Assembly (NCBI RefSeq): GCF_005871185.1
Contig: NZ_SWKN01000008.1
Span: forward strand, 1-64,000
DNA length: 64,000 nt
Source of the DNA: Limnobacter alexandrii
GTDB taxonomy: Bacteria > Pseudomonadota > Gammaproteobacteria > Burkholderiales > Burkholderiaceae_B
Direction: 5' to 3'
Positions 6,936 to 63,750 of the stretch are shown here, one piece after another. The notes beneath the pieces were generated by a model, which was not told where the DNA came from, made no database searches, and was given only the letters and a program-made list of their open reading frames with translations. Each line of letters opens with the position of its first letter. The first letter of the stretch is position 1. Position numbers and translations under genes: made by a program.

Positions 6936-7370
6936 TTATTGTTTACCCGGCCTGAACGGCGGCGCCTTGGGAAACTGAAAAACACCGGGCGGTATTTCCA
7001 CCTCCGGCGCTTTTTCGCTGGTCCACACATGGGCCATGGGTTGGAATTCGAAAGGTGGCCCCAGCCTGTCGGCAGCTACACCCAGCAGGCCAGTCAGTGC
7101 ATCCACCGTGGCATACACAAAATCATTGCAGTGGCTGCATCGGCGGTATTGCTTGGGTTTACCCGAGCCACCTGTCATCTCAATCGCCTTGAATTCGCCT
7201 TGTGCGCAGTGTTCTTCGGCTTTAAAAAAAGCGGCCTTTGCATAGGGCATGCCGCTAATGGTTTGGCAGTCACGGCAATGGCAGATCAGCTGCGCAACCG
7301 GCGCTTGGGTAAAAGTAACGGCCAATTGACCACATTGGCACTGCGCACGGAAAGTGTTGTTTATCATCAT
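6936..7370 (-). CDS. GFA-family zinc protein
   Basis: The 144-residue product has the zinc-binding pattern of the GFA (glutathione-dependent formaldehyde-activating enzyme-like, Mss4 fold) family: CQCG near residue 11, CHCRDCQ near 31 and RRCSHC near 77. Most family members have no proven formaldehyde role, so the reaction is left open. It begins 18 bases after the stop of the SLOG-cyclase gene on the same strand and may be the last gene of that transcription unit, though this kind of enzyme has no known link to such systems. Confidence 0.85.
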   Translation of the reverse strand: MMINNTFRAQCQCGQLAVTFTQAPVAQLICHCRDCQTISGMPYAKAAFFKAEEHCAQGEFKAIEMTGGSGKPKQYRRCSHCNDFVYATVDALTGLLGVAADRLGPPFEFQPMAHVWTSEKAPEVEIPPGVFQFPKAPPFRPGKQ

Positions 7371-7388: not shown

Positions 7389-9251
7389 TTATCGCTCAAA
7401 ATCCAGCACCACTGTGGTGGCATCGCTGTTCTCGGTTCTTCTCAATAAAAACATTCGCATCACGCCGTAGCTTTTGGCGGCCTGCGTTTGGCCCACATAA
7501 TCGCAAGCGAATTCATGTTTGCTGTCAATCGCCAGCACTGCTGCGAAGGTTTCAGTGACGTACACGCAGCCCTCGGGCGTCACGGGTTCAATTCGTGCGG
7601 CGCGGCTAACATGTGCACCCATGGCGGTTTCGCGCAGGGTGATGGGGTCCAGGGTTAAATACACTGGGCCAAGGTGCAAGCCGATTCTCAAGGCCAGTTC
7701 GTCGGGTAAACCAAGTGCGGATCGATCAATGCTCGCCATGCTTTCCTGCATGGCCAGTGCGCATTCGGCAGCGGCGGCAACGTGGTTGAACACGGCGAAT
7801 ATACCATCGCCCCAGGTGTTGATGCTGTGTAGTTGCCGCTGGTGTTGCGCTGTTACTTTGGCCAGTCGCCCCATGATTTGTTCTACAAATGCGGGCAGTG
7901 CGGCATCGCCAAGCTTGCTGAAACCTTTCACGTCTGCAAACAGCATGGCTTTGCTTTCGCGGCCGTGTTGCCTGGTGATGGCGGCTGCTGCGGAAGGTAT
8001 CAAGAGCGGGTTTGCGGGTAGTTCTTCCGTGAAACGGGCTTGCTTGCTGTTCACCAAATACTGGGGCAAGCCGGTCAACTTCCATTGTTGCAGGTCGGCC
8101 TCGGTGCCTGCCTGGCTGCTGCTGGCAATTTGCCCGTCCCACACGCCAATTTGAGCCACGGTGGTATTCAAGTGCCGCGCATTGAGTATGGCCAGGCCCA
8201 TGGCAATTTGGCTGCAATAGGCAAACAGTTGTTCGTCTTGCAGGTAGGCGTCGTCGGTGGCCATTCGCACGCTTCGAGCCGAATTCAGGCAGCGCTCGAA
8301 CCGTGTAGCCCACTGGGGGCCGCACTGTTGCACTGATACTTTTACAAAATCCTCGCGATCAAAAGGCAGCACCACATGAAGGTCTGCGCCGCGTTGAAGC
8401 AAACTTTCTGCAAACAGAATGTCGGCGCCTCCCGCTAATGATCCATAGCCAACCCCCACGTTGTACAAGTCGAGCAATTGTTGGATTTTTTCCTTTACGC
8501 GTGTTTCCTCGTGGTCTGGAAAACGCCCGGCAGGGCTGATCAAGTGCCCGGTGTAGTGAATGACTGTGGGTGGCGTTGTAAAACCAAGGCTGCTGAAATC
8601 ATGCCCCAGGCAGGCGCACAGGCGTTGCAATTGCCGCAGGGTGGAGGCCAGCGAGGTTCGGTTTGAACCAATCAGCAATGTGGTTTGTGGCACAAGTGCG
8701 CGCGCTGCGCCCAGTTGCCCTTGAATGAGCAGTGCTTCAATGCGCGTGGCGTTGACCCAGTATCGCTCGCTTGGGTCGGCCATGTTGTGTTGTTGATTTT
8801 GAAGCTGATCGTGAAGCTGATTTAGCACCACATCAGCCCATTGTGTGGCTTGCTCAAATTTGCCAGAAAACGCGGCACAGGCCGCTGCGTTAATGGCTGG
8901 GTAGTAGGCCTGCGGTGAATGGCTGTGCATGCGCCAAGCTTGCTCGTACAGTTGAAACGCGATTAAAAAACTTGCCTTGGCGGCGTCGCCTTTTTGGGCA
9001 AAACCCATGTCTTTGTGCAGGCGGGCCAGCAGGCATTGCACGTCAAGGTCTTTGCTGTTGGGCAAACCCATTTCAACAAAGCGGGCCATGGCCAATTGCG
9101 AGGCACCTGCATTGGCCAGTGCCAGCAAAGCTCGATGTTGAAGTGCGGTGTTGTCGGCTTGGGTTTGTAGTGCTTGCACTGCTGCATCGTAGGCTTTGAA
9201 AAATTCGCCTTTGCTGATCAGGTCTTTAACCTCTTGCAATGTAGTGCTCAT
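7389..9251 (-). CDS. TPR-SLOG-class III nucleotide cyclase-like protein with atypical active site
   Basis: Domains in order: helical TPR-like repeats (about 1-225), a Rossmann-like SLOG domain (about 229-375, with TGHLISPAGRF and GYGSLAGGADILFAE), and a C-terminal class III cyclase homology domain (about 431-600). Both metal-binding aspartates are present (D440 in FADVKGF, D482 in TWGDGIF). The lysine that reads adenine is N478, the paired aspartate is A546, and the transition-state asparagine is S549 (GAHVSRAARIEP), while R553 is kept. The enzyme may use another nucleotide or be a sensor. There is no membrane segment. Its ATG overlaps the stop of the TIR gene by four bases, so the two are translationally coupled. 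Confidence 0.8.
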   Translation of the reverse strand: MSTTLQEVKDLISKGEFFKAYDAAVQALQTQADNTALQHRALLALANAGASQLAMARFVEMGLPNSKDLDVQCLLARLHKDMGFAQKGDAAKASFLIAFQLYEQAWRMHSHSPQAYYPAINAAACAAFSGKFEQATQWADVVLNQLHDQLQNQQHNMADPSERYWVNATRIEALLIQGQLGAARALVPQTTLLIGSNRTSLASTLRQLQRLCACLGHDFSSLGFTTPPTVIHYTGHLISPAGRFPDHEETRVKEKIQQLLDLYNVGVGYGSLAGGADILFAESLLQRGADLHVVLPFDREDFVKVSVQQCGPQWATRFERCLNSARSVRMATDDAYLQDEQLFAYCSQIAMGLAILNARHLNTTVAQIGVWDGQIASSSQAGTEADLQQWKLTGLPQYLVNSKQARFTEELPANPLLIPSAAAAITRQHGRESKAMLFADVKGFSKLGDAALPAFVEQIMGRLAKVTAQHQRQLHSINTWGDGIFAVFNHVAAAAECALAMQESMASIDRSALGLPDELALRIGLHLGPVYLTLDPITLRETAMGAHVSRAARIEPVTPEGCVYVTETFAAVLAIDSKHEFACDYVGQTQAAKSYGVMRMFLLRRTENSDATTVVLDFER

Positions 9252-12163
9252 GGTTGTTCACCCATGGCCCACCAAATGGCTTGTCCGTTTGCACAACGGG
9301 CCAGCAAGTGGCTGCCTGTGTTGTTCAATGCCAGATCGATGGCCTGGCATTGTGGTGCATCCAGGGTTTTGATTCTTCGCAGTGTGCTGCTTTCCCACAC
9401 ATTGATCGAGCCAATTTCATCGCTGCTGATGAGCAGGTCGGTGGCCGGGTGAGATCGCAGTGCCAGAATTCGACCGCTGTGATTGGACAAGGCGCCCAGC
9501 GTGTTGCCAGTTTGCAAATCGCGAATTCTGTATTTGGCACCAAAGCGGCGATCGGCAATCCAGGGGGCTCCGCTCAGTTCGGTTTGTATGCCAAAGCCAA
9601 AACCGCTTTCATAACCGTCGTTTTCTTGAAATTCAGCCCTGGTGGCAAAGCGTTCAACAGGGGCGCATTGTTCTACATCAAAGGTTTGAATTCGACGGTT
9701 TTCCCAACCGGTGCCGTTGGTGAACAGCATGTCGATGTTGAGCACGGTTTGGTCATCCAGAAAGTAGGCCATGCCATCGTAAAACTGTTCGGTGTGTTCA
9801 AGCTTGCATCGGGTTTTGCCGGTATTCGCATCAAGCAACAGCACGCCTTGTGTACCCACCAGCAACAGGTGTTTTCCGTTCTTCGACACACTCACCGGGC
9901 GAAGGCGATTCAGCTCGGCAAGCCAATCCATGTCAACATTTTGTTTGTAATTCAAGGTGGCTTGCTTGCCCTGGATGGTCCACGCGAACAATTCGCCCTG
10001 GGCGTTCATGGCCCAGGCCCGCCCGCCTGCGGGCGACAAGGCTCCCGCCACCAGTGCGGTGTTGGCATTTGATGGGTCAAGGCCAGGAAGCTGAAGGGCG
10101 GTATTGGCTCCTTCCCAAGGTTGTTGCACCAACTGCCCCTGGGTTTGCAAAGCAAGAAAACCGGATTGATCCGGGGGCAGTGTGGTTGCAATTGCACTGG
10201 TGCGCCCCTGCTGCAATCGTGCTGGAATCGAGAAGCGGTGCAGGGTAACCGTGCCGTTGCCGCCGTGGTTCAGCGACAGCCCCAGAAGGTGCTGCCCACT
10301 GCCGCCCATCGCAAGGATGTTGTCGGACAGGCCGCCCTCAGTGCCCAGCTCAGAGTCCATGCTTGCAATCAGTTGTGCATTGATTGGTGACAGTGAGCGA
10401 TTGAATTCACCGGGTGCAAACAGACGGCTGTCGTCCTGATCAAACACAGGGTGCAAGTCGCCGATAGAGATTGCGCCATTGCGCAATTCATGCAAGTTCT
10501 CTTGCAGGTCTTCCCGAAGGGCCGCAGGGTCTTGTCGAAGTGATTTGCCTTCACTGACCACCACGTCATCGAGCGAAAAGTACAAGATGCGGGCTTCATT
10601 GCTGGGGTCGACTACCGCTAGGCTATGCCCTCGGTTGGACAAAGCCACACCCGATTCATCGGCCACCCACACTTTGCCCAGGGGCTTGAGTTGACCAATG
10701 TCTGGACCCAATTGAAAACCGTGAACTTCTCGCTTCACGCGAATCGCCAGCACGTCGTCCTGATTGCGAAGCACTTGCCGAACCTGCCCTTTGAAGCGAC
10801 CCAGCAAATGGTTGCTGCTTTGTTGGTGAATCCACACTTCGTATTGCCCATTGGCTAGCGGTGGTTTGCGATACAGCAAGTCGCCATTTGAGAAGGCGCG
10901 CAGAAGCTGCACACCATCCATTTTCAGAATGGGTTGTGGCAATACAGTTTGATCCGGCGCCCAGGGATACACCGCGACACCGCTGCTGTGTTGAATCACA
11001 ATTTGCCGGGCGTTTTCCAGCAATGCGATGTGTTCAATCGCGGCTTGGCTTGCAATGCGGGGTGTGTCCTCCAAAGGGTTGGAGGAGGTGCGAATGCTGA
11101 ACTGCGAGGGTGTCCACACTGCATGGTGCTTGCCTGAATCCGAAAGGCTGACTGCGTGGGTTTCGCTGTCGGAAAAACTGGCTGTTTCAAGCGGTTCATT
11201 CCATTGGTCAAGATTGAACAACTGCCCGCCTGAGGAGAAGCTGTGCAGCATGACCCAGTCGCCTTTCACTTCCAGTGATTCAACCTCATAGGCTCTCAGT
11301 TCCTGATTGGTTGACAGTGACTCGGCCTGAAACAGTCGCACTTGCAGGCTGGCCATGGGGTCTTTTTCCAGCCGGGCCGCGTTGGCTTTGGCGGTGTCCA
11401 GCATGCTGGACAAGTCGCCTGCCATGGCCAGTTGGTTCAAGCGGTTGCGAAGCGCTGACCTCGCTTCACCTTCGGCTTGAACATGCTGAATGTAGCCAAA
11501 CGAAGCCGCTGCAATCACGGCCAACAAACTGCCGCCCAGAAAGCCTGCCAGTGTCATGCGCCTGCGGGATTGGGTTTGATCCGACACGGCAATCATCTCG
11601 ATCAAGTCGGCACCCAAAGGTTTGTCCTTCAGGCTCGATTCTTCCAGCATGGCCTGAGCGGATGCCAGGTCTTTTCCGCGAAGCAGGAGGCTGGGGTCCT
11701 TTTTATTGTTCACCCATTGTTGCGCCCGGCTTGTGAGGTCGGTGTGCCGCTTGAGCCATTCTGGGTCCAGGTTGATGCTGCGTTCTATCCAGGCTGCAAC
11801 GGTGTTGGCATTGTCAGTGTCACGATCCAGCTTGAACCATTGATAAGCATTCAAGGCGGCGGGTATTTGGTGTTCTTCGACCCGGCTGTCGATCACAGGC
11901 AACAAGCGTTTGCGCAAACGCTCAGCGCGTTCTACTTCAAACCGACAAGCCAGCGAATCCAGAAAGTGGGGCGTGACCAGCACCACGATGAGTTGCGCCC
12001 TAAGGATGGCGTCTTCAATTTCCTCTTGCCAAAGGCTTGCGTAGTCGAGTGCGTTGGTGTCGACCCAGGCATGAATGTTTTTGCTGGCCAGACTTGTGCT
12101 GATGGCCTGGACCCATTCAGCATCCTCGCGCGCGTACGATATGAAAATTGGAGTGGTGTTCAT
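9248..12163 (-). CDS. TIR domain-transmembrane-beta-propeller (WD40-like) protein
   Basis: The 971-residue protein starts with a TIR domain (FISYAREDAEWV at residue 7, then SLWQEEIEDAI and SLACRFEVERA, with E76 at the position of the catalytic glutamate of NAD-consuming TIR domains). A helical linker (130-200, DPSLLLRGKDLASAQAML) leads to one membrane span at about 203-224. The remaining 750 residues look like beta-propeller repeats; the clearest WD40-like unit is HSGRILALRSHP through INVWESS near the C-terminus. The topology puts TIR and propeller on opposite sides of the membrane. It is the first gene of a coupled pair with the SLOG-cyclase-like protein. NADase activity is inferred, not shown. 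Confidence 0.82.
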   Translation of the reverse strand: MNTTPIFISYAREDAEWVQAISTSLASKNIHAWVDTNALDYASLWQEEIEDAILRAQLIVVLVTPHFLDSLACRFEVERAERLRKRLLPVIDSRVEEHQIPAALNAYQWFKLDRDTDNANTVAAWIERSINLDPEWLKRHTDLTSRAQQWVNNKKDPSLLLRGKDLASAQAMLEESSLKDKPLGADLIEMIAVSDQTQSRRRMTLAGFLGGSLLAVIAAASFGYIQHVQAEGEARSALRNRLNQLAMAGDLSSMLDTAKANAARLEKDPMASLQVRLFQAESLSTNQELRAYEVESLEVKGDWVMLHSFSSGGQLFNLDQWNEPLETASFSDSETHAVSLSDSGKHHAVWTPSQFSIRTSSNPLEDTPRIASQAAIEHIALLENARQIVIQHSSGVAVYPWAPDQTVLPQPILKMDGVQLLRAFSNGDLLYRKPPLANGQYEVWIHQQSSNHLLGRFKGQVRQVLRNQDDVLAIRVKREVHGFQLGPDIGQLKPLGKVWVADESGVALSNRGHSLAVVDPSNEARILYFSLDDVVVSEGKSLRQDPAALREDLQENLHELRNGAISIGDLHPVFDQDDSRLFAPGEFNRSLSPINAQLIASMDSELGTEGGLSDNILAMGGSGQHLLGLSLNHGGNGTVTLHRFSIPARLQQGRTSAIATTLPPDQSGFLALQTQGQLVQQPWEGANTALQLPGLDPSNANTALVAGALSPAGGRAWAMNAQGELFAWTIQGKQATLNYKQNVDMDWLAELNRLRPVSVSKNGKHLLLVGTQGVLLLDANTGKTRCKLEHTEQFYDGMAYFLDDQTVLNIDMLFTNGTGWENRRIQTFDVEQCAPVERFATRAEFQENDGYESGFGFGIQTELSGAPWIADRRFGAKYRIRDLQTGNTLGALSNHSGRILALRSHPATDLLISSDEIGSINVWESSTLRRIKTLDAPQCQAIDLALNNTGSHLLARCANGQAIWWAMGEQP

Positions 12164-12210: not shown

Positions 12211-13104
12211 CTATACGAACTGCCTGAATTGTTCAATTGCATAACTGGCCGCAGGCGACGGCGAGCGGCTGCTCAGGTTGACGATTGCAATGCTGCTGTA
12301 CAGCGCCGGAAAGTCGACAGTGTTCAGCTTCACCAGGCTGCCATTGTCCAGCAAGGGTTTGGCTGCAAGTTCAGTGGAGGCCGCAATTGTGTTGGTGCTC
12401 AAGGCCACTTGATGCAACAGGTTGACGTCGTCACATTCCAGTGCAAGTTGAGGCAGGTTGCGGCTGTTTTGCCCCAGCAACTGAGCCAGTCCAGCCTTAA
12501 GCATGTCAGGTAATTTGACAGAGGCTATGCCGTATTCCCAGGCTTCTTCAAACCGGTGGGCTTTGCCAGCCAAAGGGTGCTTGGCATGTGCATACAAATG
12601 TCCGTACTGGCGCATCAGGGGCTGAATGTTCAAATAAGGCGCGGCTTTGAGTTCTCCCGTGTCGGCGACGAAGAAATCAATTTCTTCTTTCAACAACAAA
12701 GCTAACAGGTTTGCCGGGTTGTCAATTTCAGCACGCACTGAAACCTTGGGAAATTCAAGGCGAATTTTCTCAATGGCCTTCCCCGCCAACGTGACTGCTG
12801 GGAAGGGCCCCACGCCAAACACCAGTTCACCCACCTCGCCTTGTTGATAAAGGCCAATGTCGCGCTTCAGCGATTTGGCTTCGAGTACCAGAATTCGAGC
12901 ACGCTGAATCAGAAACTGGCCTGCCGGTGTGGGGCGTATTTCGCCACCCTTGCGCTCGAACAGAACCAGCCCTGTTTGCTTCTCGAGCGCCTGGATGCTT
13001 CGGCTGAAAGCGGGTTGGCTTAGGTGAACCTTTTGCGCTGCTTTGGCGAAGTGGCGCGCTTCGTCGAGCGCCAAAAGATGTTCCAGCTGATGAAGATTGG
13101 TCAC
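12211..13104 (-). CDS. LysR-family transcriptional regulator
   Basis: The 297-residue product is a full-length LysR regulator. The N-terminal helix-turn-helix (ARHFAKAAQKVHLSQPAFSR, then IQALEKQTGLVLFER) is typical, followed by the linker helix and a two-lobed effector domain with VFGVGPFPAV and EIDFFVADTG. It is divergent from the sterol desaturase at 13206, which is its probable target, and upstream of the TIR gene on the same strand with a 47-base gap, so read-through into the TIR unit is possible. The inducer is unknown. Confidence 0.9.
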   Translation of the reverse strand: MTNLHQLEHLLALDEARHFAKAAQKVHLSQPAFSRSIQALEKQTGLVLFERKGGEIRPTPAGQFLIQRARILVLEAKSLKRDIGLYQQGEVGELVFGVGPFPAVTLAGKAIEKIRLEFPKVSVRAEIDNPANLLALLLKEEIDFFVADTGELKAAPYLNIQPLMRQYGHLYAHAKHPLAGKAHRFEEAWEYGIASVKLPDMLKAGLAQLLGQNSRNLPQLALECDDVNLLHQVALSTNTIAASTELAAKPLLDNGSLVKLNTVDFPALYSSIAIVNLSSRSPSPAASYAIEQFRQFV

Positions 13105-54747: not shown

Positions 54748-57700
54748 ATGAAATCCAATCGTCTTTCAAGCCCCCGTTTGAATACCCAGTTTCGTCGCAA
54801 GGCCGTGGCTTTGGGCGTGGCCATGGCCATTGCCAGTTCAGCGTATGCCAACCCCACCGGCATGTCGGTGGTTGCAGGGCAGGCCACCGCGCAAACCATT
54901 GGCAACCTGATGCAGATTACCAATACGCCAGGTGCCATTCTGAATTGGCAGCAGTTCAACATTGATGTGGGGCAAACCACGCAATTTATTCAGCAAAATG
55001 CAGCCAGCCAGGTATTCAACCGCGTTACGGGCGGCGATGTGTCACAAATTCTTGGCACCCTTCAAAGCAACGGGCAAGTGTTTTTGATCAACCCGGCCGG
55101 CGTGTTTTTTGGCCAGGGTGCCGTGGTCGACACAGCAGGCTTTTTGGCCAGTACCTTGGCCGCGTCCAACACCGATTTGTTGAATGGGCATTTGAAATTC
55201 AGCGATTCCACTGGCACAGCGGGTGGCATTGTGAACCAAGGTAGTTTGACGACACACTCGGGCGGCTCTATTGTTTTGTTGGCCCCCAGCATTGAAAACA
55301 GCGGCATTATTCATGCCGAGGGCGAGGTGCTTTTGGCTGCAGGCCACAGCGTCACGATTGTGGACATGCGGCACCCCACTATCGGCCTGACTGTTGCTGC
55401 CAAAGACGGCGACAAAGCTGTGAACCTTGGTCAAATCATCAGCAAAAATGCATCCCTGTTTTCGCATTTGGTGAAAAACAGTGGTGTGGTTGAAGCCACG
55501 GGTGCACAGGTGGGCGAGGGTGGTGTTGTTCGTTTCATCGCTCAGGGCGATGCATTGATAGGCGGGCAGGTTCTCGCTGAAAGCGCGCAGGGTAAAGGTG
55601 GTGAAATTGACATTACTGGCGAACGCGTGGCGGTGCTGAGCGGTGCCCGAATTTCTGCGGATGGCGCCACAGGTGGCGGTACCGTGCATGTGGGTGGTGG
55701 CTGGAAAGGGCAAGACGCCAGCCTGGCCAATGCGCAACAAACCGTGGTGCAGGCCAATGCCCAAATTTCTGCCAACGCCACAGCCAATGGCAATGGCGGT
55801 GAAGTGGTGGTGTGGGCTGATGGGCACACAGCTGTAGATTCTGAAGTGCAGGCCAAGGGCGGTGCTTTGGGTGGCAATGGTGGTCGTGTAGAAACCTCAG
55901 GCAAGCAAAGCCTGGCAGTCAGTGTGGCTGCGAATACATCGGCAGCCAATGGTGAGGCAGGGCAGTGGTTGATCGACCCAGCTAACCTGACAATTGTGGA
56001 TCAAATTCCGCAGGGTGGATTCGACCTTGAACAAAGCCAGCAAAGTCCATTTTTCTCCACAGACGACATCAACTCAACCTTCTCTCCCACTGAATCATTT
56101 TTGCTCAACAGCACGGTGGTGGCGGGTTTGGAGAACAATGGTTTTGTGCAAATTTACACATCCGGTACACAACCCGGAGACGGTAATCTGACCATCTCAG
56201 CCCCGATTCTGATCGATGAGAATTTTACGCAGAGTTCGGGAATCAACCCTTTGCTGTTTCTTGAGGCCAAAGGCGAGATCAATATCGATGCAGCGGTGGG
56301 TTTGAATCCCGGTCAGCTGGCGTTTGATGGCTTTGATTTGAACTTAAGCTACGACATTGCCAAACCGGTTTACATCGATGCCCCGCTTTTTTTGGGAAAT
56401 TCCGGCAGTTTGATTTTGTCGCCCTATGATGTGGGTACTGCCATGCCCACCAACACACCGGGACAGTTGCCACTTGATGGGGTGAACTTGCTTTCCGGCA
56501 TGAACAACACCGGTTCAAGCGGCCCCTTGTTACTGAATCAAATTACGACAACAAGTGCCATCGCCACCGATCCCATGACCGAACAAAATTTGAATGTCGG
56601 GCCTGGAAAAACAATCAAACTGAATGTTCTGGGCGCAAATCTTCAGGTCAATCAACTGAGTTTGTTCGGCATCGAGACCACGCCTCTCACCGACATTCGG
56701 GTTGGGGTCGACAATTTCGATCTGCCGTCTCCAATTCAAGGCAATCTTCAGTACAACCAGTTAGATGCCAACAACCTGACCGTGGATGCTGGCAGCACGG
56801 TGTCTACATTCACCCTATTTGATCCCGAAGTGTCATTTGATTTGAATCCAAGCACCAACTTGAATCAATTGACCTCTAGCGGCAATGTGAACTTCAACGG
56901 TGGCTTTAACCAAATTGCTGAAATTGATACCAATTCAGGTACCCTGAATTTCCTGAGCAGCGAGGGCAGCAGCAGTTCACCTTTCGGTTTCTATCAAATT
57001 GGCGATATTGATGCTGGCACGGGAACTACCATTAATTTGGTGGGATCCAGCCTGTCCTACCAAAAGGCGGTGCTGAATGGAACCTTCAATGTGATGCCTG
57101 GCGAATTTGGTTCTTCTGCCTCATTGAATGCGATTGACACTGATCTGAATGGAAGTATCAATTTTGCCCCGGGTTTTGCTAATGCAAGTTTTCAGGCGCT
57201 CGGTATGGGCGCCAATTCACGAATCAATCTGTCGGCGGGTTCCTATCTTGAGTTGGGAAGGGCATTCGCATCGTCCTCATCGGGTGTAACACCAACCGTT
57301 CCACCCAAGCAGCAAGGCGCTTACATTTCCAGCACACAAGGCCAATTTGTTGCCCAACAGGGTGCACGCATCGTCATGAACGGGGCTGCCTCGGATGACT
57401 TTTTCTTCTCAGAGCCTCCCCTCCAAACTGCAAGTTTTCCAGGTTTCCCATCGGGTGGTGCAATTGTAGACATCACGGGTCTGGATGGTCGCCTGGACGC
57501 GCCGGTCACAATTGAAGTCAATGGTTTCCTGAATTCCATTCAAACCGGTACCGAGAATTTTGACTTCAATTCTGAAAGTGGTCTGGAAACACCCATCAAC
57601 ACCCTGGTGATTGAATCAGCCAACATTCAGGTGAATGCAGGTGGTGAAGGAAGTTCACTGAGAATTGGTGAAGTTCAGTTTTCCGAGACGCTGAACTCTG

Positions 57701-60006
57701 ATTTTGAGGCAGTGGTGGATCTTGATTTCAATGGGTCGTTAACTGTGAACTCAGGCAGTGTTCGCCTTGAGGGCAAGAATGTCTCAACCACGGACGGTAA
57801 TCTGACCGTAAATGGCCCCAGCGCCTTGATTGAATTGTCTGGTGACTTCACCTCGGCTGATTTGTTCAATGTGAACCGCACAAACGGTGGTCTATTGGCT
57901 GCGGAAGGTTTGTGGGACAACAGTGCGGTTAACGCCGCCAATGCGGCAACGTCTGCACCATTGAGCAAAGGCGATATTCTGGTCGGTGACGACCTGGCGG
58001 TTACGGGTGGCTTGCTCACCAGTGCAGGCACTGCCAATTCAATCAATATTGCGCCAGATGGCTTCCTTGAACTTCGCAACACTGAAGTAAGCTCAACCAT
58101 CAATGTATCGCCCACCGCTGGCGTTTTACTGGCAACTCAAGACGAAAATGGTGCACCAGTAACGCCGGCAGTACTGAATGGTGCCAACATCAACATGGGT
58201 GGCGATTCCTTCCTTATTGTAGAAACAGATGCAGCAGGTGTGGCCAACTTGAATGGCACAGCCACAATCAGCTCGGGCACACAGGGCAATCTGATTCTTG
58301 CCGGTCGCCGGGCTTACGACCCCATGGCGGTGGACTCAATTCCTGATTCCATGACCCTGAATGTCGGCAGTGGAATCACGCTCAATGTGACGGGTGACGC
58401 AGCCAGCTTGCCCGAGGCACTCCAGTTTTACTATGCTCAACCGGGCGCAGTTCAGCCAGCCAGCAGACCAGTTTTTCTGGTGGGTCAATTAACGCCAGAG
58501 GTAGTGGCGATTGCAGAGTATGAGGATTTCGACGGATTCTCAACACCTGTCACCACAGTGCTTTCTGGCTTTGCCAATCCGTCTTTTGTGATCGACGGTA
58601 CAGCCGATTCGCAGACCAGTGGGCTGACCTGTTCAGTGTCTGATTTCTGCGTGAAGTTTGATGTAAGTCAGGCTGTGAACTATTCAGGGCTGGTAATGAC
58701 CTCACTGGGAGAACCAGCGCCAACCCTGGCCAACAGCGGAGTTGCCTTTGCCCCCGGTGCCGATCTCAGTGGTTTGCGCTACGCATTCCAAAGCATTGAC
58801 GAGATCCGGTTCATGATGGGTTTGAACATCGTGAACATTGCTGATCTTCAAAGTGGTCGCCGCATTGTCAACGGTGCTTCTTCTACTGTGCGCTTGGGGC
58901 CCAATCAGGCCAACGAGACAATCGCCAACAACATTGAAAACAATGGTTTGGTTGAACTGCAAGGCAACTACACCTTCAGTGGTTTGCTCACTGGCACGGG
59001 TACGCTGAGCAACAGCGGTAACTTGGTACTCACCAACAACACGGGTAGCCTGATCCAGAACAACATCATGAACAGTGGCTCCATCAGCAACACTGGTGCG
59101 TATGTTCTCAACGGCCTGGCCTCATCTGGCACAGCAGGCTTTTTCAACAGCGGCAGCTTGACTTTCAATGTGGGCCAGTTCTCCTTCGGTAGCGGAGGCT
59201 ATGTTCAGACCGCAGGCAATCTTAATGTGCAACCCGGCGCAGTCCTGAACGGCAATGTGAATATCAACGGCGGTGCCTTGCGCGGGTTTGCCAGCATCAA
59301 CGGCAACTTGAATGCACAAGGCGGTCGAATTGTTCCTGGCGCGTCTCCAGGTTTGATGACGGTGAGCGGTGATTTGAATCTGGATGCGAACAGCATTATC
59401 GACATTGAAATTGCCGGTAACGGAGGCGTGCAGGGCACTGATTTCGACTGCATCATTGTGCAAGGCAATGCCAACCTGGCGGGGCAGCTGAATTTGATCG
59501 ATATTTCCGAGGGCACTTTGACCGTTGGAGGACAGTACGCCTTCCTCGAAGCCAACACCATCAACGGTGCTTTCGCCGGTGTAGCAAGTTCACCAGCCAG
59601 CTCGGCCTACACATTTTCTTCCCCAGCGGTGGCCAACGCCCTGAATGCGCAGCAAGCGCCGATTCAGCAAATGAGCACATCCACGGTTGCTTTAAGCTCA
59701 CCGCCACCTGTCATGCCAGAACCAACCTCACCCACCAGCCCGACTACCCTGACTCAAACCACAGGTACTTCGGGCTCAACTGTCGGGCAGAACTTGAACC
59801 AGGCTTTCACGCCCACTTCGACGTCTACGTCCACAACTTCGACCAGGTCCAGTGGCGCCACCACCACGACCACTCAACAGGAAAAGCAGGCTGTGACAAC
59901 AGCGAATCAAAGCACGGGCGGAACAACATTCTCCCAGCAGTCCAATGACATTGAGTTGAAAACCACGCAAAGTAATCCACAGCGTGCTTCGGCGGTGTGC
60001 AAATGA
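54748..60006 (+). CDS. TpsA two-partner secretion exoprotein (filamentous haemagglutinin type)
   Basis: The 1752-residue protein has a long signal-peptide region (to about residue 36, with VALGVAMAIASSAYAN) and the TPS domain (about 37-260): ILNWQQFNIDVGQTTQF and GQVFLINPAGVFFGQGA are its hallmark. Then comes a beta-helix of glycine/asparagine-rich repeats (GGNGGRVETSGKQSL, GQWLIDPANLTI). Near the C-terminus a PEP/T-rich, Ser/Thr-rich low-complexity tail (TSTSTSTTSTRSSG) precedes a final AVCK with one cysteine. Cys also occurs at GLTCSVSDFCV. It should be a surface or secreted adhesin threaded by TpsB; the ligand is unknown. Confidence 0.93.
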   Translation: MKSNRLSSPRLNTQFRRKAVALGVAMAIASSAYANPTGMSVVAGQATAQTIGNLMQITNTPGAILNWQQFNIDVGQTTQFIQQNAASQVFNRVTGGDVSQILGTLQSNGQVFLINPAGVFFGQGAVVDTAGFLASTLAASNTDLLNGHLKFSDSTGTAGGIVNQGSLTTHSGGSIVLLAPSIENSGIIHAEGEVLLAAGHSVTIVDMRHPTIGLTVAAKDGDKAVNLGQIISKNASLFSHLVKNSGVVEATGAQVGEGGVVRFIAQGDALIGGQVLAESAQGKGGEIDITGERVAVLSGARISADGATGGGTVHVGGGWKGQDASLANAQQTVVQANAQISANATANGNGGEVVVWADGHTAVDSEVQAKGGALGGNGGRVETSGKQSLAVSVAANTSAANGEAGQWLIDPANLTIVDQIPQGGFDLEQSQQSPFFSTDDINSTFSPTESFLLNSTVVAGLENNGFVQIYTSGTQPGDGNLTISAPILIDENFTQSSGINPLLFLEAKGEINIDAAVGLNPGQLAFDGFDLNLSYDIAKPVYIDAPLFLGNSGSLILSPYDVGTAMPTNTPGQLPLDGVNLLSGMNNTGSSGPLLLNQITTTSAIATDPMTEQNLNVGPGKTIKLNVLGANLQVNQLSLFGIETTPLTDIRVGVDNFDLPSPIQGNLQYNQLDANNLTVDAGSTVSTFTLFDPEVSFDLNPSTNLNQLTSSGNVNFNGGFNQIAEIDTNSGTLNFLSSEGSSSSPFGFYQIGDIDAGTGTTINLVGSSLSYQKAVLNGTFNVMPGEFGSSASLNAIDTDLNGSINFAPGFANASFQALGMGANSRINLSAGSYLELGRAFASSSSGVTPTVPPKQQGAYISSTQGQFVAQQGARIVMNGAASDDFFFSEPPLQTASFPGFPSGGAIVDITGLDGRLDAPVTIEVNGFLNSIQTGTENFDFNSESGLETPINTLVIESANIQVNAGGEGSSLRIGEVQFSETLNSDFEAVVDLDFNGSLTVNSGSVRLEGKNVSTTDGNLTVNGPSALIELSGDFTSADLFNVNRTNGGLLAAEGLWDNSAVNAANAATSAPLSKGDILVGDDLAVTGGLLTSAGTANSINIAPDGFLELRNTEVSSTINVSPTAGVLLATQDENGAPVTPAVLNGANINMGGDSFLIVETDAAGVANLNGTATISSGTQGNLILAGRRAYDPMAVDSIPDSMTLNVGSGITLNVTGDAASLPEALQFYYAQPGAVQPASRPVFLVGQLTPEVVAIAEYEDFDGFSTPVTTVLSGFANPSFVIDGTADSQTSGLTCSVSDFCVKFDVSQAVNYSGLVMTSLGEPAPTLANSGVAFAPGADLSGLRYAFQSIDEIRFMMGLNIVNIADLQSGRRIVNGASSTVRLGPNQANETIANNIENNGLVELQGNYTFSGLLTGTGTLSNSGNLVLTNNTGSLIQNNIMNSGSISNTGAYVLNGLASSGTAGFFNSGSLTFNVGQFSFGSGGYVQTAGNLNVQPGAVLNGNVNINGGALRGFASINGNLNAQGGRIVPGASPGLMTVSGDLNLDANSIIDIEIAGNGGVQGTDFDCIIVQGNANLAGQLNLIDISEGTLTVGGQYAFLEANTINGAFAGVASSPASSAYTFSSPAVANALNAQQAPIQQMSTSTVALSSPPPVMPEPTSPTSPTTLTQTTGTSGSTVGQNLNQAFTPTSTSTSTTSTRSSGATTTTTQQEKQAVTTANQSTGGTTFSQQSNDIELKTTQSNPQRASAVCK

Positions 60007-61485: not shown

Positions 61486-63750
61486 ATGAGCAAATTGATC
61501 AAGTCCTGGCGAAAAATCGCCGGCAAGGCATTTCGAATCGGTGTGGGTTTTTCGTTCACGGCAGTGGCCCTGTTGCATGTGCTGGGCTTCGCGCCCAGCG
61601 AAGTGGTGAAGCGCCTTGATTATCTTATCTACGATGTAAGGCTTCGGGCAGAGGCACAGCTGCCCGAGCTTGACCCGCGCATCGTGATTGTCGACATTGA
61701 TGAACAAAGCTTGAGCGAAGTGGGGCGTTGGCCATGGTCTCGAGATGTGGTGGCCAAACTGATTGTTGAGCTGACCGACAGGTTGGGTGCTGCATCCGTC
61801 GGTTTCGATATTGTGTTTGCCGAGCCACAGCAAAGTGATGCGCTTCTGGCCTTGGACACCATTATTGAAAACAAGCCAGCGCTTAGCAATCAGCTTCAGC
61901 AATTGCGATCAGGAATACAGGCGCGATTTGATCGAGATGCCCAATTGGCCGACATACTGGCTGACCGGCCCGTGGTATTGGGGTATTACCTGAATCAGGA
62001 TGCAACTGCGCTATCTGGCGCTTTGCCGCCTGCCTTGTTCAAGAAAAGCCAGTTGGGAGATTTAACCCTGGACAGCACCAGCTGGCAGGGCTATGGCGGC
62101 AATATTCCCGTGCTTCAGAAAAATGCAGAGGGTGGTTACTTCAACCCGATTGTGGACGAGGACGGCACAGTTCGTTCCATTCCGCTGCTCGCTCAATTCA
62201 ACGATGCCTATTATCAAAGTTTTGCGCTGGGCACACTGCGGCGGGCCTTGGGCAATCCACAAGTGATACCTGTGTTTCCGGAAGGTGTACCCGATGACTA
62301 CGGCGCAGTTGAATTAATTGCATTGAGGTCTCCAGATGTCGAGTTGGACATTCCCGTTGAACGCGGCTTGCTAACCCGAGTTCATTTCCGGGCCAAGGGC
62401 GGTCCCAAGGCGGGCGGCTACCGTTATGTCTCAGCGGCCGACGTACTTGCCGGCACATTGAAGCCCGAAGACATTGAAGGTCGAATCGTGCTGATTGGCA
62501 CCACGGCACCAGGCCTGCTCGATTTGCGAAGCACGCCCGTGAACCCGGCCTATCCCGGTGTGGAAGTGCATGCCAATGTAATCAGCGGAATGCTCGACAG
62601 CATTTACAAACTTCGGCCCGAGTATTCGCAGGGCTTGCTGTTTATTACAGTGTTGGCCGTGGGTTTTGTGCTGAGTGTGATGATGCCCATTCTTAGCGCC
62701 ACCTGGTCGCTGTTGGTTGCACTTGCCGTGCTGGTGGCCAGCATCGCGATCAATTCTTTGTTGTACTTTCAGGCTGGTCTGGTGTTGCCCGTGGCGGTGG
62801 TGTTGTTGCTGGTGCTTGCCATATTCATGTTCGACGTTGCCTATGGATATCTGGCCGAGTCGCGCAGCAAGCGGCAGATGGTGGATTTGTTCGGAGAGTA
62901 TGTCGCCCCGGAACTGGTGTCTGAAATGGCCGCCGACCCCACACGCTATTCCATGGAAGGTGACAGCCGTGAACTCACGGTGCTGTTTTCCGATGTGCGT
63001 GGTTTCACCACCATTTCCGAATCACTCAAGCCCAATGAATTGCGCGAGTACATCAATGAATACCTCACGGTGATGTCCGAGATCATTCGCTCTCACCGTG
63101 GCACGCTGGACAAGTACATTGGTGATGCCATCATGGCCTTTTGGGGGGCACCCATTGCCGATGCCGAACATGCTGAGTTGGCCACCAAAGCAGCCATTGC
63201 CATGCAGGAAGAAGCTGTGCGTTTGAATGAGCGGCTTTTGGCGCGAAATTGGCCAACGCTGGCCATCGGGGTGGGTGTGAATACCGGGCAAATGCGCGTG
63301 GGCGACATGGGCTCTAAAATTCGCCGTGCTTACACCGTGATGGGCGACGCTGTGAACCTGGGTTCTCGCCTGGAAGGCATCACCAAAACTTATGGTGTGG
63401 GCGTTATCGTGGGTCCACAAACCAAAGCCGCTGTGCCAGGCATGCTGTTTCAAGAATTGGATGCCGTGAAAGTGAAGGGAAAGAACGAGCCGGTTTCAAT
63501 TTATGCGCCTTTGGGCGAGCGCACCGCACTGAACCAAGCCAGCCTCGATCAGCTGGAACAATGGAACGCATTTCTCACTGCGTTTCGCGCCCAGAAATGG
63601 CAGTTGGCGCGTGAACAATTGGCTGGATTGCAGGGCAGCGCTGTGACCAACGCTACCTTGCATACCCTCTACGAAAACCGCATCGAGTATTTTGAGTTGA
63701 ACCCCCCACCTGAAAACTGGGACGGCGTTACCCAGTTTGATACGAAGTAA
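61486..63750 (+). CDS. CHASE2-domain adenylate cyclase
   Basis: The 754-residue protein has an N-terminal span (about 17-36), a periplasmic CHASE2 sensor (about 45-370: DPRIVIVDIDEQSLSEVGRW, RPVVLGYYLNQ), three spans (about 375-460), and a class III cyclase domain (about 495-690). Catalytic residues are all in place: D503 (FSDVRGF), K543 and D547 (DKYIGDAIMAFW), D621 and N624 (VMGDAVNLGSR), consistent with ATP specificity and cAMP formation. The last 60 residues are helical. It follows the FecR-domain protein, which may signal to CHASE2 in the periplasm. Confidence 0.93.
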   Translation: MSKLIKSWRKIAGKAFRIGVGFSFTAVALLHVLGFAPSEVVKRLDYLIYDVRLRAEAQLPELDPRIVIVDIDEQSLSEVGRWPWSRDVVAKLIVELTDRLGAASVGFDIVFAEPQQSDALLALDTIIENKPALSNQLQQLRSGIQARFDRDAQLADILADRPVVLGYYLNQDATALSGALPPALFKKSQLGDLTLDSTSWQGYGGNIPVLQKNAEGGYFNPIVDEDGTVRSIPLLAQFNDAYYQSFALGTLRRALGNPQVIPVFPEGVPDDYGAVELIALRSPDVELDIPVERGLLTRVHFRAKGGPKAGGYRYVSAADVLAGTLKPEDIEGRIVLIGTTAPGLLDLRSTPVNPAYPGVEVHANVISGMLDSIYKLRPEYSQGLLFITVLAVGFVLSVMMPILSATWSLLVALAVLVASIAINSLLYFQAGLVLPVAVVLLLVLAIFMFDVAYGYLAESRSKRQMVDLFGEYVAPELVSEMAADPTRYSMEGDSRELTVLFSDVRGFTTISESLKPNELREYINEYLTVMSEIIRSHRGTLDKYIGDAIMAFWGAPIADAEHAELATKAAIAMQEEAVRLNERLLARNWPTLAIGVGVNTGQMRVGDMGSKIRRAYTVMGDAVNLGSRLEGITKTYGVGVIVGPQTKAAVPGMLFQELDAVKVKGKNEPVSIYAPLGERTALNQASLDQLEQWNAFLTAFRAQKWQLAREQLAGLQGSAVTNATLHTLYENRIEYFELNPPPENWDGVTQFDTK

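Follow-up and report, generated by a model that had tools for sequence, protein, structure and literature searches.

We identified, in a 64,000-nucleotide stretch of the Limnobacter alexandrii genome (the window), two overlapping genes that may form a membrane-bound signalling module (Table 1), in which a TIR protein with a predicted membrane span is paired with a cytosolic protein combining TPR, SLOG-like and class III nucleotidyl cyclase domains. Our tentative reading is a Thoeris-like relay from TIR to SLOG that ends in a cyclase, and it is based on the gene pairing, the domain content, the catalytic-type residues, purifying selection and the recurrence of TIR or nSTAND1 genes next to relatives of gene 2. 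In this reading the module would probably serve in a conflict or stress response. What the earlier note on this DNA had observed was confirmed; it had proposed that a membrane sensor relays to a partner handling nucleotides, and the domain anatomy fits a coupling of this kind.

Table 1. Features of the locus and their positions in the window
Feature	Position	Strand	Basis or remark
Gene 1, 971 aa: TIR_2, helical linker, one predicted membrane span, degenerate WD40-type propeller	9248..12163	-	
Gene 2, 620 aa: TPR-S region, YpsA-like SLOG Rossmann domain (indirect assignment), class III nucleotidyl cyclase	7389..9251	-	
ATGA start/stop overlap of gene 1 and gene 2	9248..9251	-	sequence
Codon of E76, TIR catalytic-type Glu	11936..11938	-	computed from ORF start 12163
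Codon of D440, first metal-binding Asp	7932..7934	-	computed from ORF start 9251
Codon of D482, second metal-binding Asp	7806..7808	-	computed from ORF start 9251
LysR-type regulator, conserved flank, outside the module	12211..13104	-	present without the full pair in same-genus genomes
GFA-family gene, conserved flank, outside the module	6936..7370	-	present without the full pair in same-genus genomes

Organisation and conservation of the gene pair

Both genes are on the minus strand and share an ATGA between stop and start codon, which confirmed the overlap claimed in the earlier note; in two related loci (L036 and L037) the stop codon of the TIR gene overlaps the first aligned gene 2 residue by the same four bases. 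Such an overlap makes translational coupling of gene 1 and gene 2 likely. Scans for promoters (2 found versus 2.6 expected) and terminators (14 found versus 10.0 expected, sd 2.9) were uninformative. In three same-genus pairs, both genes were under purifying selection with a similar dS (0.8–1.1), and dN/dS was 0.09–0.10 for gene 1 and 0.13–0.14 for gene 2. By domain, dN/dS in gene 1 was 0.05–0.13 for the TIR domain, 0.03–0.07 for the linker between TIR and membrane, and 0.10–0.11 for the propeller, with the TIR value below that of the propeller in only two of the three comparisons; in gene 2 it was 0.14–0.15 for TPR, 0.12–0.14 for SLOG and 0.05–0.09 for the cyclase.

Gene 1 joins a TIR domain to a degenerate propeller through a predicted membrane span

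The TIR domain with E76, as reported before, was recovered by Pfam as TIR_2 at residues 6–117 (3.9e-20, above the curated cut-off), and the catalytic-type Glu is kept in 27/27 aligned TIR domains, in an alignment that omits five weaker TIR ORFs (L061, L063, L093, L108 and L110). A helical linker (residues ~126–203) is followed by a single membrane span predicted from hydropathy (residues 205–223), and the side N-terminal of the span is more positively charged, which would place the TIR domain in the cytoplasm with the propeller outside. The propeller region (about residues 300–966) is of a degenerate WD40 type, with the best WD40 match at 1.3e-5 and all such Pfam matches under the curated cut-off. 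Two proteins of similar layout (L049 and L085) have strong WD40 matches. The structure model of gene 1 (pLDDT 49) is too poor for placing propeller blades, and Foldseek still finds WD-repeat proteins with it, at low TM-scores. Comparison with PHROGs gave one weak match for gene 1 (3.6e-4) and none for gene 2.

Gene 2 combines TPR-S, a SLOG-like region and a class III cyclase

For gene 2, TPR and cyclase domains had been described together with a SLOG-like domain; the first two scored above their Pfam cut-offs, and the SLOG evidence is indirect. The TPR-S family (PF20308) covers residues ~1–222 (1.2e-11; 45.5 bits versus a curated cut-off of 27.6), and was matched by 45/45 family members scanned at E up to 1, with MAP3K_TRAF_bd matches in 37/45 (best 1.6e-13). 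Through these matches the TPR-S region is related to the central regulatory region of ASK1 (MAP3K5), which differs in having a kinase as output where gene 2 has a cyclase. A PDB search with the TPR profile matched ASK1 chains at 6e-5, with designed TPR chains scoring better and kinesin light chains similarly; kinship with ASK1 on the basis of this profile was rejected, the ASK1 score not being above that of generic TPR matches.

The SLOG region (residues ~226–405) had no Pfam match in the window protein, and its sequence profile matched nothing in the PDB at E up to 10. In a homologue (L010) there is a YAcAr match of 1.8e-4, which falls short of the cut-off, and Foldseek links the region to a DprA-like protein and to YspA-type SLOG proteins; when the YAcAr route was followed in 60 genomes, 4/60 matched, none over the cut-off. 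When the gene 2 model was aligned with VIA, mainly residues 427–607 were covered, so the missing SLOG rows there are uninformative. Through the homologue match and Foldseek, the middle domain is tentatively and indirectly assigned as a YpsA-like SLOG domain. Three of its residues are near-constant in the family (D277 in 69/72, E282 in 68/72 and R317 in 70/74).

The class III cyclase domain (Pfam, residues 430–606, 3.2e-13, above the curated cut-off) is modelled at pLDDT 92, with the fold and both metal-binding Asp residues of class III nucleotidyl cyclases, and the 50 structure matches listed for the gene 2 model are general class III cyclases. PADLOC, which was run on the pair and the GFA gene, matched gene 2 with PycC models only (best 7.6e-7, over the cyclase domain alone). 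D440, D482 and R553, the last of which we take to be the transition-state Arg position of class III cyclases, are present in 77/77 untruncated family rows. Two further positions are more variable: the usual transition-state Asn position, at which gene 2 of the window has Ser, is S in 37, T in 18, N in 12 and other residues in 10 of the 77 rows, and the base-selecting position four residues before D482 (N478 here) is N in 46, D in 17, A in 6, E in 5 and R in 3; these presumably correspond to the transition-state Asn and base-selecting Lys/Glu of mammalian cyclases. A CHASE2-class III cyclase elsewhere in the window (61486–63750, plus strand) served as comparator and has K at the base-selecting and N at the transition-state position. 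In EaPycC the residue four before the second metal Asp, equivalent to N478 of gene 2, is an Arg, R142 (PMC11224242). The gene 2 cyclase departs from the usual Asn and Lys/Glu, and may therefore be weak, with little basal activity, altered in its choice of base, or regulatory. T542, seven positions before that of the transition-state Asn, was considered as a specificity argument and rejected, since the CHASE2 cyclase of the window also has Thr there.

TIR and nSTAND1 genes recur next to gene 2 relatives

A scan of genome contigs yielded 98 gene 2 relatives; we retained the 80 best loci and called TIR ORFs around them with our own profile. A TIR ORF was found within 1.5 kb of the gene 2 relative in 22/80 loci (23 ORFs in 219.9 kb), with 3 more in 201.8 kb at 1.5–3 kb and 1 in 233.1 kb at 3–5 kb; the density was 10.5 per 100 kb within 1.5 kb versus 0.2 at 5–10 kb (1 ORF in 480.5 kb). 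As a control, other class III cyclases were examined at 20 loci for about 1.5 kb on each side (68 kb), and no TIR ORF was present. Judged by record titles, the relatives paired with TIR span five phyla, and on a 74-row tree built by a quick method the TIR label required 11 changes, at least 7 of them forced by starred branches. Pfam detected TIR_2 above cut-off in L045, L046, L054, L056, L060, L063, L085, L089, L059, L061, L066, L073 and L104; for L043, L049 and L053 only WD40 was among the Pfam matches listed, and the calls for L036, L037, L047, L050, L094 and L108 are those of our profile.

An nSTAND1 gene was present within 1.5 kb in 8/80 loci, all of which lie outside the TIR set, and nSTAND1 genes were also found farther out (1 locus at 1.5–3 kb, 1 at 3–5 kb and 2 at 5–10 kb). 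Either TIR or nSTAND1 was found in 25/61 loci with 1.5 kb or more of sequence on each side, or 25/48 when the Gallionellaceae-type clade was left aside; in that clade (18 rows, by our own assignment) neither was found within 1.5 kb in any row (0/18). TIR was absent within 1.5 kb in 58/80 loci, some being contig ends, and as the loci were picked by likeness to gene 2, close relatives are counted more than once. The conserved pairing that had been proposed therefore holds for 22/80 relatives in five phyla, which is only part of the family. The recurrent TIR and STAND-type neighbours suggest a two-part signalling module, possibly with a role in defence.

A span was predicted in 19/23 of the nearby TIR ORFs, the exceptions being those of L054, L094, L104 and the short ORF of L108. 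The tails of the TIR ORFs differ: WD40 in L043, L049, L053, L085 and L089, a weakly propeller-like tail in L059, TPR in L061, L063, L066 and L073, and other or unscanned tails in the remainder. Seven of the eight nSTAND1 neighbours were examined for spans, each having one between residues 677 and 769, and the N-terminal part resembles DUF4062 below cut-off in the three that were examined (L100 1.8e-4, L048 3.6e-4, L042 0.068). Long N-terminal extensions of gene 2 relatives contain a RyR domain in 5/6 scanned (L089, L091, L093, L098 and L105), with no Pfam match for the cyclase domain at 0.1 in L089 and L098. Single relatives adjoin genes for NUDIX (L106), HD (L093), a cNMP-binding ABC protein (L098) and a Cys-loop channel-like protein (L091).

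The pair occupies a variable slot within the genus

Full-length gene 2 was present in 3/16 same-genus genomes (G000, G006 and G013), and G001 has decayed pieces of it. Gene 1, searched in 10/16 genomes, was found in G000 and G006 and is also present in G013, and it adjoins full-length gene 2 in 3/3 genomes; L037 is a contig of G006 (Limnobacter sp. MED105) and L036 a contig of G013. The flanking LysR gene (E <= 1e-60) was present in 10/16 genomes, 7 of these without the full pair, and the GFA gene (E <= 1e-20) in 9/16, 6 of these without the full pair. In G012 the site is empty, with a gap of ~160 bp between LysR and GFA and neither pair gene inside, and in G013 another gene stands between GFA and the pair. 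The earlier note had suggested that a GFA gene may be co-transcribed; because of the empty site and its occurrence in genomes without the full pair, we rejected GFA as a component and consider it a flank outside the module.

The LysR-GFA interval (L119, L120, L121, L122 and L123) is a variable slot in the genus, being empty, holding the pair or holding other genes, which were named by reading the sequences, without a family search: a hydrolase-like gene in G005 and G007, a small membrane protein in G008, and a Fic-like gene with others in G001.

Relation to known systems

Effector domains described for ThsA, the SLOG protein of Thoeris, are SIR2 and Macro, neither of which was found in gene 2, where a Pfam search with E up to 1 recovered cyclase and TPR-type families only. 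The pair resembles Thoeris in that a TIR protein with a catalytic-type Glu adjoins a protein with an indirectly assigned SLOG domain, linked here to the YspA/YpsA-like group, and differs in that the TIR of gene 1 is predicted to be membrane-anchored with a propeller, and in that the SLOG of gene 2 is joined to TPR-S and a class III cyclase. In Thoeris, the cADPR isomer produced by ThsB acts via the SLOG domain of ThsA (PMC10022894), and the YpsA-like SLOG clade is said to include cADPR sensors (PMC9503650). The best PADLOC matches of gene 1 were TIR effector models (e.g. SAVED_TIR, 2.6e-9), with ThsB models at 1.4e-5 or weaker only. With Pycsar, the pair shares a class III cyclase beside a TIR protein, and among PADLOC models PycC comes closest to gene 2. 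Unlike in Pycsar, TPR-S and SLOG form one protein with the cyclase, and gene 1 has no cNMP_binding match at E up to 1 (Pfam), whereas PycTIR carries an N-terminal CNBD (PMC11224242). With no match to a ThsA effector domain in gene 2, and no CNBD match or PycTM-type effector, the pair does not qualify as Thoeris or Pycsar, and it may work like these systems without belonging to either.

No description of a membrane TIR and TPR-SLOG-cyclase pair turned up in the literature searched, and the architecture may have been listed before. The Aravind group has reportedly placed TPR-S, SLOG and nucleotidyl cyclase proteins in a nucleotide-centred conflict network, with which the pair shares its domain vocabulary, as do the RyR-fused and nSTAND1-linked forms among the relatives. 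Pfam scans of 12 other proteins of the window gave none that reads to us as a defence family. A search of 50,697 phage records gave no match, and IMG/VR gave two matches only, of 26–28% and in the cyclase domain; a phage origin was rejected on these grounds. Among plasmids, 9 records matched gene 2 and 4 matched gene 1, and in no record did a single place cover more than 80% of the query.

Possible mechanism and alternatives

In the relay that we tentatively favour, the TIR domain would lie in the cytoplasm with the propeller across the membrane, as the charges around the span suggest, and sensing of a trigger would lead the TIR domain to cleave NAD into an ADP-ribose-type messenger. This messenger would bind the YpsA-like SLOG domain of gene 2, as happens with ThsA in Thoeris, and the TPR-S region could dock the two proteins or sense a further signal. 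SLOG binding would then switch on the class III cyclase, which has the required fold and metal residues, to produce a putative cyclic mononucleotide as output. In some relatives, a membrane-anchored nSTAND1 protein is the neighbour instead of TIR. Also counted for the relay were the TIR-free control loci, the changes of the TIR label on the tree, the spans predicted in 19/23 near TIR ORFs, the link of the SLOG region to YspA-type SLOG proteins, the cADPR sensors said to belong to the YpsA-like clade, the signalling of ThsB to the ThsA SLOG domain, and the single relatives that adjoin NUDIX, HD or cNMP-binding genes; counted against it were the 58/80 loci without a near TIR, the choice of loci by likeness to gene 2, the indirect SLOG assignment, the S and N substitutions in the cyclase, the nSTAND1 genes also found farther off, the Gallionellaceae-type clade and the phage records without relatives. 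A more specific version is doubtful: a two-messenger relay in which the NAD-derived messenger of a transmembrane TIR acts through SLOG on a class III cyclase whose base selectivity has changed, the second messenger possibly being a non-canonical cyclic nucleotide, and in which TIR and nSTAND1 membrane proteins are interchangeable inputs to one cyclase hub across bacterial phyla. If the relay were true, the TIR-to-SLOG and cyclase logics of nucleotide signalling would be joined in one module, and the TIR domain would belong to a membrane protein of receptor-like character, reminiscent of the layout of Toll-like receptors. The TIR and nSTAND1 neighbours around one cyclase family also provide a testable handle on an uncharacterised, widespread protein.

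Several other explanations were weighed. Ordinary envelope or environmental signalling, with the propeller sensing an outside ligand and the cyclase making cAMP or cGMP for gene regulation without any conflict role, would suit the absence from phage records (and the two distant IMG/VR matches) as well as the gene 2 clade that has no TIR or nSTAND1 neighbours and in several loci adjoins a RadA-like gene (named by reading). We consider it unlikely: the recurrent TIR and nSTAND1 neighbours, the patchy presence in 3/16 genomes and the variable slot fit conflict genes better, and the base-selecting residue is unlike that of the canonical cyclase in the same window. The order of events might also be reversed as in Pycsar or CBASS, such that the TPR-SLOG-cyclase protein senses, its cyclic nucleotide activates the TIR protein directly or via another protein, and NAD depletion kills or arrests the cell. 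PycC as best PADLOC match of the cyclase, the TIR effector models matched by gene 1 and the NAD-depleting TIR effectors known from Pycsar (PMC11224242) argue for this order, which is about as unlikely given that gene 1 lacks the cyclic-nucleotide-binding match expected from PycTIR, and that a membrane TIR with an outer propeller would be more receptor-like than a soluble effector.

A scaffold similar to the ASK1 signalosome is quite improbable. TIR and TPR-S would assemble there, with neither TIR nor SLOG being enzymatic or ligand-gated, and clustering alone would activate the dimeric cyclase; the MAP3K_TRAF_bd matches and the ASK1 chains among the TPR profile hits (no better than generic TPR) are consistent with it, but scaffolding alone needs neither the TIR Glu kept in all aligned domains nor the near-constant D277, E282 and R317 of SLOG. 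Finally, four genes on the same strand with short gaps could suggest that the pair, the GFA enzyme and the LysR regulator form a metabolic operon, which is highly improbable, being already contradicted by the empty site of G012 and by LysR and GFA genes in genomes without the full pair.

Other gene arrangements

Among the Gallionellaceae-type loci, the TPR-SLOG-cyclase gene is next to a RadA-like gene in L077, L079, L086, L101 and L111 and next to a transporter-like gene in L067 and L070 (names by reading), as if it were a core gene there. On a Tolypothrix plasmid (L034, NZ_CP063798.1, 5857–9599), a truncated cyclase relative of 144 aa is followed by a TIR-WD40 gene, and on a Priestia plasmid (L035, NZ_CP128553.1, 3118–11327) a Pycsar effector-family gene, a cyclase, a small RyR-domain gene and an annotated TIR gene lie within ~8 kb. 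Proteins in L011 (10–2085) and L027 (1243–3279) have a TIR-like N-terminus (TIR_2 about 0.08), TPR-S and a SLOG-like end, and no cyclase. In the cyanobacterial locus L089 (5284–11830), a triple-TIR WD40 gene is divergent from a RyR-TPR-S gene, the end of which aligns with the SLOG-cyclase part of gene 2. In Paraburkholderia and Caballeronia (L106, 8532–12253; L032, 5797–8951), a protein of 462–463 aa with a lipoprotein-like start is encoded by a gene overlapping the cyclase gene by 4 bases; the L032 copy is without a Pfam match, and the NUDIX gene is next in L106. In the window itself, a two-partner secretion exoprotein of 1752 aa (54748–60006, plus strand), which contains a TPS secretion domain, is encoded near the CHASE2 cyclase.
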